Source: Peptococcaceae bacterium CEB3 (lineage in GTDB: Bacteria > Bacillota > Desulfitobacteriia > Desulfitobacteriales > Desulfitobacteriaceae). Taken from it: a stretch of DNA of 64,000 bases. Position 1 is the stretch's first letter. Each line of letters opens with the position of its first letter. Positions 4,846-17,125 of the stretch are shown here, one piece after another. The notes beneath the pieces were generated by a model. The model was not told the DNA's origin. It searched no databases and was given only the letters and a program-made list of their open reading frames with translations. The stretch is from positions 186,127 through 250,126 of the forward strand of contig LDXJ01000060.1 of the NCBI GenBank assembly GCA_001029295.1. The letters are read 5' to 3'. The position numbers and the translations under genes are program-made.

Positions 4846-6903
4846 ATGAGTCCTTTAGTCCGTATGCGTAAACGAATCGCTTTTCTTTTTTTGTGCGTCA
4901 GCGTGTTCTTGGTCGTCCTAATCGTGCGCTTGGCTTATGTTCAATTGGGCCAAGGGGCGGAGTTAACCAAAAAAGCCGAAGAGAGCCATTTCCGCGGCGT
5001 CCCGGTGGCGCCCAAGAGGGGAAACATCGAGGACTGCAACGGCAGCATCCTGGCGATGAGTGTCAGCAGCGAAACGGTTTACGCTATTCCGGCGGAGATC
5101 CGGCAGTCCGGACGCACAGCAGAGATCGCGCAAAAGCTTGCCCAAATGTTACATAAGCCCTTGGATGATATTACCAAGCTGATCACGAAACGCGCGGCCT
5201 TGGTCTATGTACAGAAAAGGGTCGATTCTCAGGCCGCCGCGGCTGTCCGGGCGGCAAACTTTCCGGGCGTGGGGGTTACGGAAGACAGCCGCCGTTATTA
5301 CCCGAACGGGTCCTTGGCGGCCCATATTATCGGATTTACCGGGATTGACAATCAAGGGTTGGAAGGAATAGAGTTAACCAGGGATAAAGAGCTCAAGGGG
5401 ACGCCGGGGAGCGTCCAGGTAGAATTCGGAGCGAACGGGGTCGAACTGCCGCAGGCCGACCGCTTGTATTTCCCTCCCAAACAGGGAGATACGGTCCGCC
5501 TGACGATCGATAAAAATATTCAGGCCTTTGCAGACCGCGAACTGCAAAAGCTCATGTCCGGCCAGGGGGCCAACATGAACGGCCAGGCGCCGAAAAACGC
5601 GTCCATTCTGGTCATGGACCCCGACACCGGAGCCCTCTTGGCCCTGGCCATGACCCCAACTTTTGATCCAAATCATTACCAGGATTATGATCCGTCGGCT
5701 CGGCGCAACATTGCGGTGCAAAACGGCTATGAACCCGGCTCCACTTTCAAGATCATTACCCTGGCGGCGGCTCTGCAAGAGAAGAAGATTACGCCGGAAG
5801 GGCACTTTTTTGACCCGGGATACTATGCGGTGCTCGGGAAACATGTGCGCTGCTGGAAAGCGGGCGGCCACGGAGACGAGACTTGGGTTCAGGTGGCGGA
5901 AAACTCCTGCAATCCGGGTTTTGTCGAGATGGGACAACGTCTGGGAATGAACGAGTTCTACAAATATTTGCATGACTTCGGTTTCGGTCAGAAGACAGGG
6001 ATTGAAATGTCGGGTGAGGCTCCGGGAATTTTGGCGAACAAGAAAAAGGCCACCGCGCTCGATTTGGCGACCATGTCGATCGGTCAGACCAATAATGTCA
6101 CCGCGATTCAACTCTTGACCGCGGTTTCGGCTGTGGCTAACGGAGGCCTTTTGCTCAAACCCCAACTCGTGAAGGAAATTGACAGTCCGAGCGGACAGGT
6201 TCTCGTGCCTTTTCAGAAGCAGGTGGTACACCGGGTGATCAGCGAGAGCACCTCGAAGCTGGAACGGGAAATCCTGGAGGCGGTGGTTACCAACGGCACC
6301 GGGAGGCGGGCTTTTCTACCGGGTTACAGGGTGGCCGGCAAGACCGGAACCGCCCAAAAAGTCGTCAACGGAGCGTATGTACAAGGGGAATATGTCGCTT
6401 CGTTTGTCGGTTTTGCCCCGGCCGATCACCCGCGCTTGGCAGTCTTGGCCGTGGTCGACGGCGTGCCCTTTTTCGGCGGGGCGGTGGCGGCTCCCATTGT
6501 TCAGTCGGTGCTGCTGGATTCTCTCAAATACCTGGGCATCAAACCCTCACCGGGCGCTCCCATGACCCCCAGCAAACCGATGCCGGGTCTGGAATTTCCG
6601 CCGGTGAAGAAAGCGGCGAGCGTGCCTTCGGTCCTGGGTCTGCCCTTGGCCGAGGCGCAGAAAACACTGACTCAGGCGGGCTTTCAAGTGGATGTCAAAG
6701 GACAGGGGCCAACCGTGGTCGATCAAATTCCCCACGGCGACGCGAGTGTGGAAGCGGGTTCGACGGTGCTGATCGATTTGGGACAGGAGGCGGGGGTTCC
6801 CAGCCTGGGGCGCTGGTGGGCGGATGAGGACGAAGATGTGGCCGCCATCCGGTCCCTGGGGGCTAGGGTTCCGCTGACGGCGGCGCAGGTACCGGGCAGT
6901 TAA
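4846..6903 (+). CDS. Class B penicillin-binding protein with C-terminal PASTA domain (SpoVD/PBP2b type)
   Basis: DD-transpeptidase for septal or spore cortex peptidoglycan. 685 residues: an N-terminal membrane anchor (residues 10-30), a dimerisation domain, and a transpeptidase domain with the catalytic S299-T-F-K302, the SCN motif at 354-356 and KTG at 499-501. One PASTA domain follows (about residues 585-650, starting VPSVLGLPLAEAQKTL) and then a tail. In Firmicutes the dcw copy with one PASTA domain is either division PBP2b or sporulation-specific SpoVD. No second copy is present here, so the two roles cannot be separated. GGGAGGAAGCGC precedes the ATG. Confidence 0.92.
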   Translation: MSPLVRMRKRIAFLFLCVSVFLVVLIVRLAYVQLGQGAELTKKAEESHFRGVPVAPKRGNIEDCNGSILAMSVSSETVYAIPAEIRQSGRTAEIAQKLAQMLHKPLDDITKLITKRAALVYVQKRVDSQAAAAVRAANFPGVGVTEDSRRYYPNGSLAAHIIGFTGIDNQGLEGIELTRDKELKGTPGSVQVEFGANGVELPQADRLYFPPKQGDTVRLTIDKNIQAFADRELQKLMSGQGANMNGQAPKNASILVMDPDTGALLALAMTPTFDPNHYQDYDPSARRNIAVQNGYEPGSTFKIITLAAALQEKKITPEGHFFDPGYYAVLGKHVRCWKAGGHGDETWVQVAENSCNPGFVEMGQRLGMNEFYKYLHDFGFGQKTGIEMSGEAPGILANKKKATALDLATMSIGQTNNVTAIQLLTAVSAVANGGLLLKPQLVKEIDSPSGQVLVPFQKQVVHRVISESTSKLEREILEAVVTNGTGRRAFLPGYRVAGKTGTAQKVVNGAYVQGEYVASFVGFAPADHPRLAVLAVVDGVPFFGGAVAAPIVQSVLLDSLKYLGIKPSPGAPMTPSKPMPGLEFPPVKKAASVPSVLGLPLAEAQKTLTQAGFQVDVKGQGPTVVDQIPHGDASVEAGSTVLIDLGQEAGVPSLGRWWADEDEDVAAIRSLGARVPLTAAQVPGS

Positions 6904-13969: not shown

Positions 13970-15079
13970 TTGCGTGTGATTGTAACCGGCGGTGGAACCG
14001 GGGGGCATATTTATCCTGCCCTGGCCATTGCCCGGGGATTGAGGGATAAAGTCCAGGATTGTGAGATTCTTTATGTAGGCACCCGTCAGGGTATGGAAGC
14101 AAAGCTGGTGCCGGAGGCAGGCTGGAGGTTTTCCGGAGTGAGCGGGCAGGGACTGCCGCGCAAGTTGAGTCTGGAAAGCTTGAAAACTGTGGCGCGCAGT
14201 TTTCAGGCTCTCTGGCAGACCAAGGAGATCCTGCGCCATTTCGGGCCGGATCTGGTCGTGGGAACCGGTGGGTATGTGTCGGGGCCGGTCGTGCTGACGG
14301 CGGCTATGTTCGGCATTCCCACCCTGTTGCATGAGCAGAATGCCCTGCCGGGCATTACGAACAGGACCTTGGCTCGGGTGGTGAAAAGGGTGATGGTAAC
14401 GTTTCCCGAGAGCCTGCCGCGTTTTCGGGCCGGCGGAAAGGCAGTCTTAACCGGATTGCCGGTCCGCCCCGATATTGGCAAGGTCAGCCGCGCCGCCGGC
14501 GCCAAACACTTCTCCCTGCGTCCGGAGCGACTGACACTACTGGTTACGGGAGGAAGCCGGGGGGCCCGGACGCTGAACCGGGCGATGCTGACAGTGTTGG
14601 AGAAGCTGGCTCCGCGGCCGGAGGTCCAGGTGATCTGGGCGACGGGGAGCAATACTTATCAAGAGACCCTGGACGGCTTGCGCCGGCGGGGTATTAAGTG
14701 GGAGCGTCCGAACTGGCGGGTTTTGGAATACCTAAAAGATATGCCTGAGGCCTACGCCGCGGCGGATCTCTGTCTCAGCCGGGCCGGCGCGGCTTCCCTG
14801 GCCGAGCTCATGGTGGCCGGGAAACCAAGTGTCCTTATTCCCTATCCGTTCGCGGCGGAAAACCACCAGGAGTACAATGCCCGCGCCCTGGTAGAAGCGG
14901 GGGCCGCCCGCTTGATTTTGGACAAGGAATCAACCGGACCGAGGCTATGGCAAGAGGTCGAGGGTTTGCTGGCTGACCGGGCTCTCCTTGAGCGTATGGG
15001 CGCGGCGGCGCGCGGGCTGGCCCAGCCGGAGGCTCTGAGCAAGATCGTGGATCTCTGCCTGGAAACGGCCTGGAAGTGA
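13970..15079 (+). CDS. murG: Lipid II synthase MurG
   Basis: Transfers GlcNAc from UDP-GlcNAc to lipid I at the inner membrane face. 369 residues. GGGTGGHIYPALAIARGL at the N-terminus, GTGGYVSGPVVLTA, LLHEQNALPGITNR and the GT-B C-terminal SRAGAASLAELM and PYPFAAENHQ blocks are all present. The start is TTG at 13970 with GAAAGGAG nine bases upstream. Confidence 0.96.
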   Translation: MRVIVTGGGTGGHIYPALAIARGLRDKVQDCEILYVGTRQGMEAKLVPEAGWRFSGVSGQGLPRKLSLESLKTVARSFQALWQTKEILRHFGPDLVVGTGGYVSGPVVLTAAMFGIPTLLHEQNALPGITNRTLARVVKRVMVTFPESLPRFRAGGKAVLTGLPVRPDIGKVSRAAGAKHFSLRPERLTLLVTGGSRGARTLNRAMLTVLEKLAPRPEVQVIWATGSNTYQETLDGLRRRGIKWERPNWRVLEYLKDMPEAYAAADLCLSRAGAASLAELMVAGKPSVLIPYPFAAENHQEYNARALVEAGAARLILDKESTGPRLWQEVEGLLADRALLERMGAAARGLAQPEALSKIVDLCLETAWK

Positions 15080-15175
15080 GGCAGGCTTCCCCGTCTCCCT
15101 TGGTTTTCCCTTGGTCTCCCCTTGCTTTCCTTTTGGTCTCCCCTCGGTCTCCTTCCGGTCTCCCCTTTCACACCT
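15080..15175 (+). repeat. Pyrimidine-rich tandem repeat after murG
   Basis: About seven imperfect copies of a 10-13 bp unit near TTGGTCTCCCC fill most of the gap between murG and the MurC-like gene. On the other strand it reads as GGGGAGACC runs. The unit differs from those in all other gaps. Confidence 0.8.
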
Positions 15176-15228
15176 TTTGACCCGGCCGCATAACATAAGG
15201 CAGTCAAAAAGGTCTGGGAAAGGAGCCG

Positions 15229-16221
15229 GTGCGCGTGTGGCCGAAGCGGAAAGTTAAATTACTGGCACTACAGGACGCGGTGGGTTTGAGAGAGTTTCAG
15301 GCACTTTTGAAGGCCGTGGGTTTGCCCTATGTGGTGGAGGAACCGGGAACCCGAATACATAAGGGAAAAAGCGTTTTTTGGGATACGGATCCGGACGAAA
15401 ACGTATCGAACGAAAAAGTATCGGACGGAGAAGTACCGTACGGGGAAGTGCTCGACGGAGAAGTGTCTGACCGGGAAGCGCTCGACGGAGAAGGACCGTA
15501 TGCTGAAGTGCCGGATGGGGTGTGTACGGATTTGATCGTATGGCCGGGAATGAGCGCGGACATAGCTGAGCGGGCACGCATCGCGGGAATGCGGCTGATG
15601 TCTCCGGAGGAGCTTTTGGCGGAGATTTGGCGGGATGAGCTTCTTCTGCCGGTGTTCTCACCTTCGGTCGGGATCGGCGGAAAACCTCTGCTCTGGGTTA
15701 TTTTACGGGAAGCCGGCTTTGCCCCCTCCCTGCTCTGGCAGGACGGGAACGGAGTCTGGCAGGGAGAGAAGAGTCCGGGCCTCGGTTGGATTGTGCCCGG
15801 GGTCTGGCTGCGGGAGATGGCGGGGGACCGGCGCTTGGGCAGAGAAAGACCCGCGGAACCCGTGTCATGGGCGGTGCGCGCGGATAGGGTGGATTTCTAC
15901 GCGGTTTCAAGAGTGTCTGAGAGAGAGAGGTATCTCGGCGCTGTACCGCGTTGGCCGGAACCGACGGAAGAAACGGAGGCGTGCGGGAGTGTCGCTCAGG
16001 CTTTGGGACTCGGGGTTGCTTGGGCGGATGTTCGGCAGGCTTTGCAATCGCTGTGGCCGGGTGAGCAACTGCTCGCGTTGAAAGAGCTGAAACCTTCGGC
16101 CGCTTGGAGAACTGAAACTGAGGGGAGTCAACCGGATGGAGTTAGACGGGTTGAAAGGCAGAGTGGAGTACAATTACCCACTGAAGAATTTGACGACTTG
16201 GAAGATCGGCGGGCCGGCTGA
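15229..16221 (+). CDS. Diverged MurC-like protein with a damaged P-loop (probable pseudoenzyme)
   Basis: 330 residues in the slot between murG and murB, where murC usually lies. The first 30 residues could match the MurC Rossmann start without its GxGxxG. Near residues 105-135, LIVWPGMSADIAERARIAG and MSPEELLAEIW follow the pattern of MurC's SSAIP...NPE...A...G region. At 145-156, PSVGIGGKPLLW aligns with the Mur ligase GTHGKTTT loop, but Thr after Lys is Pro153. The later SVAQALGLGVAWADVRQAL resembles the helix before MurC's FxGxxRR. The C-terminal ligase domain is missing (MurC has about 450 residues). Residues 59-98 are a pentapeptide repeat. The last 86 bp overlap murB. Homology is my inference; an unrelated protein is possible. 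Confidence 0.5.
   Translation: MRVWPKRKVKLLALQDAVGLREFQALLKAVGLPYVVEEPGTRIHKGKSVFWDTDPDENVSNEKVSDGEVPYGEVLDGEVSDREALDGEGPYAEVPDGVCTDLIVWPGMSADIAERARIAGMRLMSPEELLAEIWRDELLLPVFSPSVGIGGKPLLWVILREAGFAPSLLWQDGNGVWQGEKSPGLGWIVPGVWLREMAGDRRLGRERPAEPVSWAVRADRVDFYAVSRVSERERYLGAVPRWPEPTEETEACGSVAQALGLGVAWADVRQALQSLWPGEQLLALKELKPSAAWRTETEGSQPDGVRRVERQSGVQLPTEEFDDLEDRRAG
15403..15522 (+). repeat. In-frame 15-bp tandem repeat, eight units
   Basis: Eight consecutive 15-bp units encode pentapeptides: VSNEK, VSDGE, VPYGE, VLDGE, VSDRE, ALDGE, GPYAE, VPDGV. The repeat lies inside the MurC-like gene and keeps its frame. It would form an acidic disordered loop. Confidence 0.9.
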
Positions 16222-17125
16222 ATGTGTCTGCTGGCCGCGGAGTTCGGAGGAACTGATTTCGCTTGTCCGGCAGGCCCTCAGTCAAGGGCGGGATTTCCGG
16301 ATCATCGGCAGGGGTTCAAATCTGCTGGCGCCTGATTCGGGTTTAGCGGGAATCACGGTCGTAACCACTGAGCTAAAGCAGATCGAGTGGGGGGAGTATT
16401 CCGTCTGGGTCGAAGCGGGGTATTCTTTGGTCAAGCTGGCCCGGGAAGCCGGGGAACGCGGCTGGTCGGGTCTGGAGTTTGCCGGGGGAATTCCCGGGAC
16501 GGTCGGAGGAGCCGTGGTCATGAATGCCGGGGCGTATGGTGAAGACATGGCGGGCAGAATCAAGAACGTCAAGGTTTGGTGTGACGGCGAAGTCCGGATT
16601 CTCAATAAGCAAAGGCTGAAGTTCGGGTACCGCACGAGTTCCTTCCGGAACGGAAGCGCGTGCCGAGCCGAGACGGCGCCCTCTGTCGATTCCCGGAGCG
16701 CGTCGGAGCTGGCGGCCGGGCCGCCGGGAAAGGAAGGAAGGGACAGAGTCCCGCCTCCGGTCTTGGCTGCCGAACTTTCCTTTGGGCCGGGTGAGCGGGA
16801 GGAAATTCTGGCCCGCATGAGCGAAGGCCTGCGCAAGCGGGCGGCCGCCCAGCCTCTGGCGGAAGCCAATGCGGGGAGTGTCTTCCGCAATCCGCCCGGG
16901 GATTATGCCGCCCGGCTGATTGAGCAGACCGGCTGGAAAGGAAAAAGATGCGGCGGAGCCAAGGTGTCCGAAAAACATAGTAATTTTATCGTCAATACCG
17001 GGGAAGCGACGGCGGCCGACGTTCTGGGCCTAATCGAGGCTATTCGCGGGGATGTATGGCAAAAGTTCGGCATCCGGCTGGAGACGGAGGTTCGTTATCT
17101 GGGAGCGGAAGGCAGCAAAAGATAA
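16136..17125 (+). CDS. murB: UDP-N-acetylenolpyruvoylglucosamine reductase MurB
   Basis: Reduces UDP-GlcNAc-enolpyruvate to UDP-MurNAc with NADPH and FAD. 329 residues. FAD-binding blocks GRGSNLLAPDSG and GGIPGTVGGAVVMNAGAYG are clear. The catalytic Ser lies in NAGSVFRNP and the acid in the terminal RLETEVRYLG. The protein is the short type IIa form. A stretch of about 35 residues rich in Ala, Ser, Pro and Arg (near 178-212) interrupts the fold after RTSSFRNG and is not normal for the family. The ATG overlaps the preceding gene by 86 bp and has GAGGGGAG upstream. Confidence 0.95.
   Translation: MELDGLKGRVEYNYPLKNLTTWKIGGPAECVCWPRSSEELISLVRQALSQGRDFRIIGRGSNLLAPDSGLAGITVVTTELKQIEWGEYSVWVEAGYSLVKLAREAGERGWSGLEFAGGIPGTVGGAVVMNAGAYGEDMAGRIKNVKVWCDGEVRILNKQRLKFGYRTSSFRNGSACRAETAPSVDSRSASELAAGPPGKEGRDRVPPPVLAAELSFGPGEREEILARMSEGLRKRAAAQPLAEANAGSVFRNPPGDYAARLIEQTGWKGKRCGGAKVSEKHSNFIVNTGEATAADVLGLIEAIRGDVWQKFGIRLETEVRYLGAEGSKR

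Follow-up and report, generated by a model that had tools for sequence, protein, structure and literature searches.

The window analysed here is a stretch of 64,000 nucleotides from Peptococcaceae bacterium CEB3, and its features described below lie on the forward strand. Between murG (positions 13970 to 15079, identified by Pfam) and murB (16136 to 17125, identified by Pfam and from the sequence, with the ribosome-binding site GAGGGGAG) is an open reading frame, hereafter X, predicted to encode a MurC-derived pseudoenzyme. X runs from a GTG at 15229 to a stop codon at 16219-16221 (15229 to 16221, 330 amino acids). A sequence-only reading of this DNA had pointed out a 330-codon frame with a good ribosome-binding site and coupling to murB, and this organization is indeed present: AAGGAG occupies positions 15220-15225, and murB starts inside X, so that the two frames overlap by 86 nt. 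A second GTG at 15235, which yields a protein of 328 residues beginning with V-W-P-K-R, is the likelier start because it is better spaced from AAGGAG and coincides with the start point of most orthologues, usually V/M-W-P. X is separated by 149 bases from the end of murG at 15079, and promoter and terminator scans of the murG-murB interval returned nothing above chance. The gap between murG and X contains an imperfect 22-base pyrimidine-rich tandem repeat (GTCTCCCCTTGGTTTCCTTTTG, positions 15093-15167). The equivalent gap of Acididesulfobacillus acetoxydans (locus L039, about 4861-4945), a close relative of the window's organism with approximately 80% protein identity, is shorter and has a similar style. 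The X-bearing family, to which Desulfosporosinus also belongs, consists of spore formers that for the most part reduce sulfate.

Sequence searches of Pfam, NCBIfam and PDB with X gave no relevant match; hits to SigZ, PRK04338 and MCM_C (E 0.003-0.09) were taken as noise. Likewise, NCBIfam MurC matched none of 23 X members, and the TIGR01082 cut-off was not reached. AlphaFold2 models of moderate confidence were built with no templates and with X-family orthologues as the only input, for X of the window (mean pLDDT 70.6, pTM 0.65) and for the orthologue of the Desulfosporosinus species D. metallidurans (mean pLDDT 72.9, pTM 0.69). MurC is the best match of the models, as the sequence-only reading had led one to expect. 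Using Foldseek against the PDB, all 23 matches of the window model with E <0.001 are MurC, and those of the D. metallidurans model are MurC followed by MurD (best E 3e-7), the rmsd being large. With VIA-align, Yersinia MurC aligned to the window model over 212 residues (Z 11.8, 4.1 Å) and to the D. metallidurans model over 209 residues (Z 12.6, 3.9 Å); the alignments span about model residues 2-277 and 3-246, respectively, which correspond to the N-terminal and central domains, and other MurC structures give similar Z values. Identity between X and MurC in the structural alignments is 8-17%.

Profile comparisons independently point in the same direction. An HMM built from X alone and searched in six frames against 398 genomes of the phylum gave three weak matches outside the family, two of which are intact MurC proteins from two other families, encoded next to murG and aligned at the expected places; the third (L125) was dismissed as noise, its frame containing four stops. 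hhalign scored X at 38.3 against MurC of the type encoded between murG and murB (slot type; 200 column shuffles: mean 15.8, maximum 33.6) and at 35.9 against MurC of the type encoded elsewhere (distal type; maximum of 200 shuffles 24.1), with residues 14-171 of X aligned to residues 12-140 of MurC. These two scores were obtained with larger and more diverse MurC alignments than the small ones that scored 16-30. The earlier claim of Mur-ligase-like blocks in MurC order is thus supported by the profile score together with the structure matches, and X is very probably derived from MurC, whose fold it shows in its N-terminal and central domains.

X residues 1-40 (15229-15348) form a strand-helix-strand remnant of the N-terminal, UDP-sugar-binding domain of MurC, with predicted strands at residues 8-12 and 34-37, a helix at residues 20-30 and the conserved pattern WP.R..L.A.....G..G..ALL; hhalign covers it from residue 14 onwards. 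Residues 41-97 (15349-15519) are a disordered acidic linker of variable length that replaces the middle of this domain (pLDDT <50 over residues 43-96) and derives in part from a 15/30-nt tandem repeat detected by TRF at positions 15424-15511, which codes for an acidic repeat. Between the two species of the genus, X measures 330 versus 320 amino acids, and the linker is enlarged by the tandem repeat in the window's species. Residues 98-137 (15520-15639) correspond to the end of the N-terminal domain, in which TDLIVWP...AGMRLMSPEELLAEIW is aligned by hhalign to VVVSTAV...RNLTIWHRADLLAWLM of MurC. They are followed by a shortened central, ATPase-type domain with conserved tryptophan (residues 138-280, 15640-16068), whose end, ALGLGVAWADVRQAL, matches the end of the Mur central domain and for which AlphaFold2 places secondary-structure elements over residues 138-286. 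The remaining residues 281-330 (16069-16221) form a low-confidence tail that is shorter or missing in some relatives; codons 281-302 fall within the murB initiation region and codons 303-330 overlap the murB frame.

The features required for catalysis are lost. The sequence-only reading took GIGGKP for a degenerate P-loop, a motif that is not conserved in orthologues; the profile alignment instead places the MurC P-loop GTHGKT at SPSVGI, four residues earlier (residues 144-149, 15658-15675). The column of the Walker lysine contains L, F, G, R, I or S in the 30 orthologues compared, never K, and the EADESD and NIExDH motifs are gone. The third, C-terminal ligase domain is missing, as had been noted, with no DDYAHHP/FQPH: the frame ends after the central domain and gives way to murB. 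The N-terminal glycine loop, described as absent, is reduced rather than wholly lost, since the glycines corresponding to GMSG of MurC are kept in 29 of 30 (G19) and 28 of 30 (G22) orthologues, X of the window keeping G19 only. Judging from these losses, X is apparently a catalytically dead pseudoenzyme. Because X retains precisely those parts of MurC that bind the substrate (N-terminal) and the nucleotide (central) and has lost the ligase domain, and because strand 1, the next helix and G19/G22 are conserved, X could be viewed as a ligand sensor whose Mur-like cleft binds a UDP-sugar or another small molecule without ATP and thereby tunes a pathway enzyme. We consider this unlikely, given that the usual ligand contacts are probably lost with a disordered linker in the middle of the N-terminal domain and no P-loop in any orthologue.

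Homologues of X in the same slot, predicted by the sequence-only reading, are found across the family: X occurs in 35 of its 37 genomes, and the order murG-X-murB is observed in all 30 loci checked. Two other families of the order, represented by 24 genomes, yielded no X homologue, and in them murG directly adjoins murB wherever both are fully readable. X is not indispensable, as it was lost from one family member (G013) in which murG and murB are adjacent. The other genome lacking X (G009) was not counted as a loss because murB is absent from its assembly as well. Across the family's genera the frame is open in nearly every genome; in one, a TGA stands at the extreme end of the matched region. 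An alignment of 23 orthologues contains 14 invariant columns, at least five of which are tryptophan, and W170, G262 and W265 are among the conserved residues.

Across relatives (11 close pairs), dN/dS of X is 0.21-0.37, well below 1 and two- to several-fold higher than for murG, murA and ftsW; values for neighbouring genes are 0-0.15 for murG, murA, ftsW, murD and ftsQ, and 0.05-0.39 for murB. By region, dN/dS reaches 0.53 in the linker, as against 0.22 in the N-terminal block (residues 1-40) and 0.18-0.28 in the core, including the central domain; dS falls to 0.15 over codons 281-302 compared with 0.33-0.67 in the preceding blocks. Based on this regional pattern, residues 1-40 and 98-280 represent the selected protein, whereas the tail mostly reflects the constraint on murB. 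Of the 330 retained codons, the last ~50 are mainly constrained by the murB start region. Just before murB, the final stretch of X (positions 16000-16130) is nearly identical in DNA sequence to the A. acetoxydans locus, silent sites included, hinting at a conserved translation-initiation region of murB.

According to these substitution patterns, X is kept by selection on the protein. An explanation in which X matters in cis only, its translation running into murB and controlling initiation there while the protein itself is dispensable, would account for the 86-nt overlap, for the low dS just before the murB start and for the lack of a terminator-like site between murG and murB. It fits poorly with a constraint that concentrates on the structured blocks, at a distance from murB, and relaxes in the linker, as a folded protein would show, or with a murB that directly follows murG in G013 and in the order's other families, and we regard it as quite improbable; it and the ligand sensor are the main competing readings.

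An intact murC elsewhere in the genome had been postulated, and a complete copy is located on another contig (G000:C62:328802-330133), scoring 480 bits to TIGR01082 and containing the P-loop and third-domain motifs. It lies tail to tail with genes that by eye resemble argH, nicotinate phosphoribosyltransferase and nadE, and its product has ESCEYRRHF where slot MurCs have EADESD. A murC match was obtained in all 61 genomes searched, above the cut-off in 59. In a maximum-likelihood tree of 80 MurCs, whose long branches leave the exact position of the root unsure, the working MurCs from all three of the order's families group in a single clade (100/100, branch length 1.15). The slot MurCs of the phylum, which fall outside it, include the MurCs of the class's next family. 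All nine genomes of that next family have an intact canonical murC in the order murG-murC-murB, and murC occupies this slot in many other families of the phylum. Since the distal murC belongs to a different deep clade and the slot murC is intact in the next family, the native slot murC appears to have been displaced and its remnant kept in one family. The most economical scenario is that the order acquired or retained a second MurC, that two families deleted the murC of the slot and that in one family it eroded into X and was kept. The earlier proposal of an inactivated MurC paralogue kept by selection is thus sustained with regard to inactivation and retention, while its scaffold or regulator role is a matter of inference; "paralogue" is better replaced by displaced native copy, the working murC being from another deep clade.

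The assignment of X to the slot rather than the distal type is based on its place and on its slightly higher profile score (38.3 versus 35.9), and not on a tree, X being too diverged to be placed. Lineages elsewhere that have a non-slot murC as their best match, be it the ESCEY or another type, carry murA, murB or other genes after murG and no relic, so that a retained murC remnant looks peculiar to the X-bearing family. Family f58 has two neighbouring murC genes in both G143 (L167, L180) and G181 (L171, L181), all of the ESCEY type. An identity of 8-17% could mean similarity of fold alone, in which case X would be a protein that is not derived from MurC and was inserted in the slot; this is very improbable, as structure searches rank MurC above MurD, MurE and MurF, both genuine X-HMM matches outside the family are slot MurCs, residues 14-171 align to MurC 12-140, and the slot is the place of murC in many other families of the phylum. 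Slow decay of an ordinary pseudogene, to which the loss of catalytic motifs and of one domain, the absence of X from G013 and a dN/dS higher than that of the neighbours could be ascribed, is hardly credible for a frame that stays open in nearly all genomes across the family's genera, with 14 invariant columns in 23 sequences and a dN/dS of 0.21-0.37.

MurG reportedly binds Mur ligases and has been suggested to serve as a scaffold; in other bacteria, MurC also occurs fused to MurB or to MurG (PMC6420597, PMC4803751). We propose that the reaction would have been taken over by a second murC, located elsewhere in the genome and from a distinct phylogenetic branch, and that the native slot murC would then have eroded to X while staying between murG and murB. 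X would now be a non-catalytic docking or regulatory piece of a cytoplasmic Mur/MurG assembly and may, for example, hold or modulate MurB, MurG or the distal MurC. As an overall explanation, an eroded native slot murC retained as a non-catalytic piece of the Mur/MurG assembly is probable, and conservation throughout the family suggests that X was turned into a helper protein. Docking or regulation in this assembly is the likeliest mode of action, although we would not put it above an even chance; we infer it from the lack in X of the parts for Mur-type ATP binding and ligation, and from the fact that MurG and MurB assemble with or are fused to Mur ligases elsewhere. More tentatively, the native murC was displaced by a MurC of the second clade and its dead remnant may now have an important non-catalytic part in organising or sensing the early peptidoglycan pathway.

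We found no report in the literature of a bacterial Mur ligase giving rise to a pseudoenzyme, no description of X in publications that deal with Mur pseudoenzymes or with the murC of these bacteria, and no bacterium in which an organiser or sensor layer made from a dead MurC is described. The history of the slot can be read in living relatives, with an intact slot murC in the next family of the class, an empty slot in two families of the order and a dead remnant in the X-bearing family. If the remnant does organise or sense the Mur pathway, it would provide a direct handle on the cytoplasmic Mur/MurG complex, which has long been discussed and is poorly defined: in a natural protein with the shape but not the chemistry of MurC, docking is separated from catalysis.

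X can be compared with several known systems. With MurC, it shares the fold of the N-terminal and central domains, the order of secondary-structure elements and the slot between murG and murB; it differs by the absence of the Walker-A lysine, EADESD, NIExDH and the third (ligase) domain, by having ~95 residues fewer in the aligned range and by the disordered linker carried in its N-terminal domain. Relative to Mpl, the next-best structural match (Z 10.8-12.0), and to MurD (Z 7.4-9.0), X shows the same losses; Z does not separate Mpl from MurC, and X was assigned to MurC by its gene place and by the HMM matches. The MurB-MurC fusion of Verrucomicrobium (PMC4803751) links MurB physically to a MurC-type chain, but this MurC is active, whereas X is a separate protein without catalytic motifs. 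The PAP11/MurE-like subunit of the plastid-encoded RNA polymerase (PMC9456514) belongs to the MurE family and has an RNA polymerase as its partner in the plant plastid; it is nevertheless, as proposed for X, a Mur-ligase homologue inside a protein complex.
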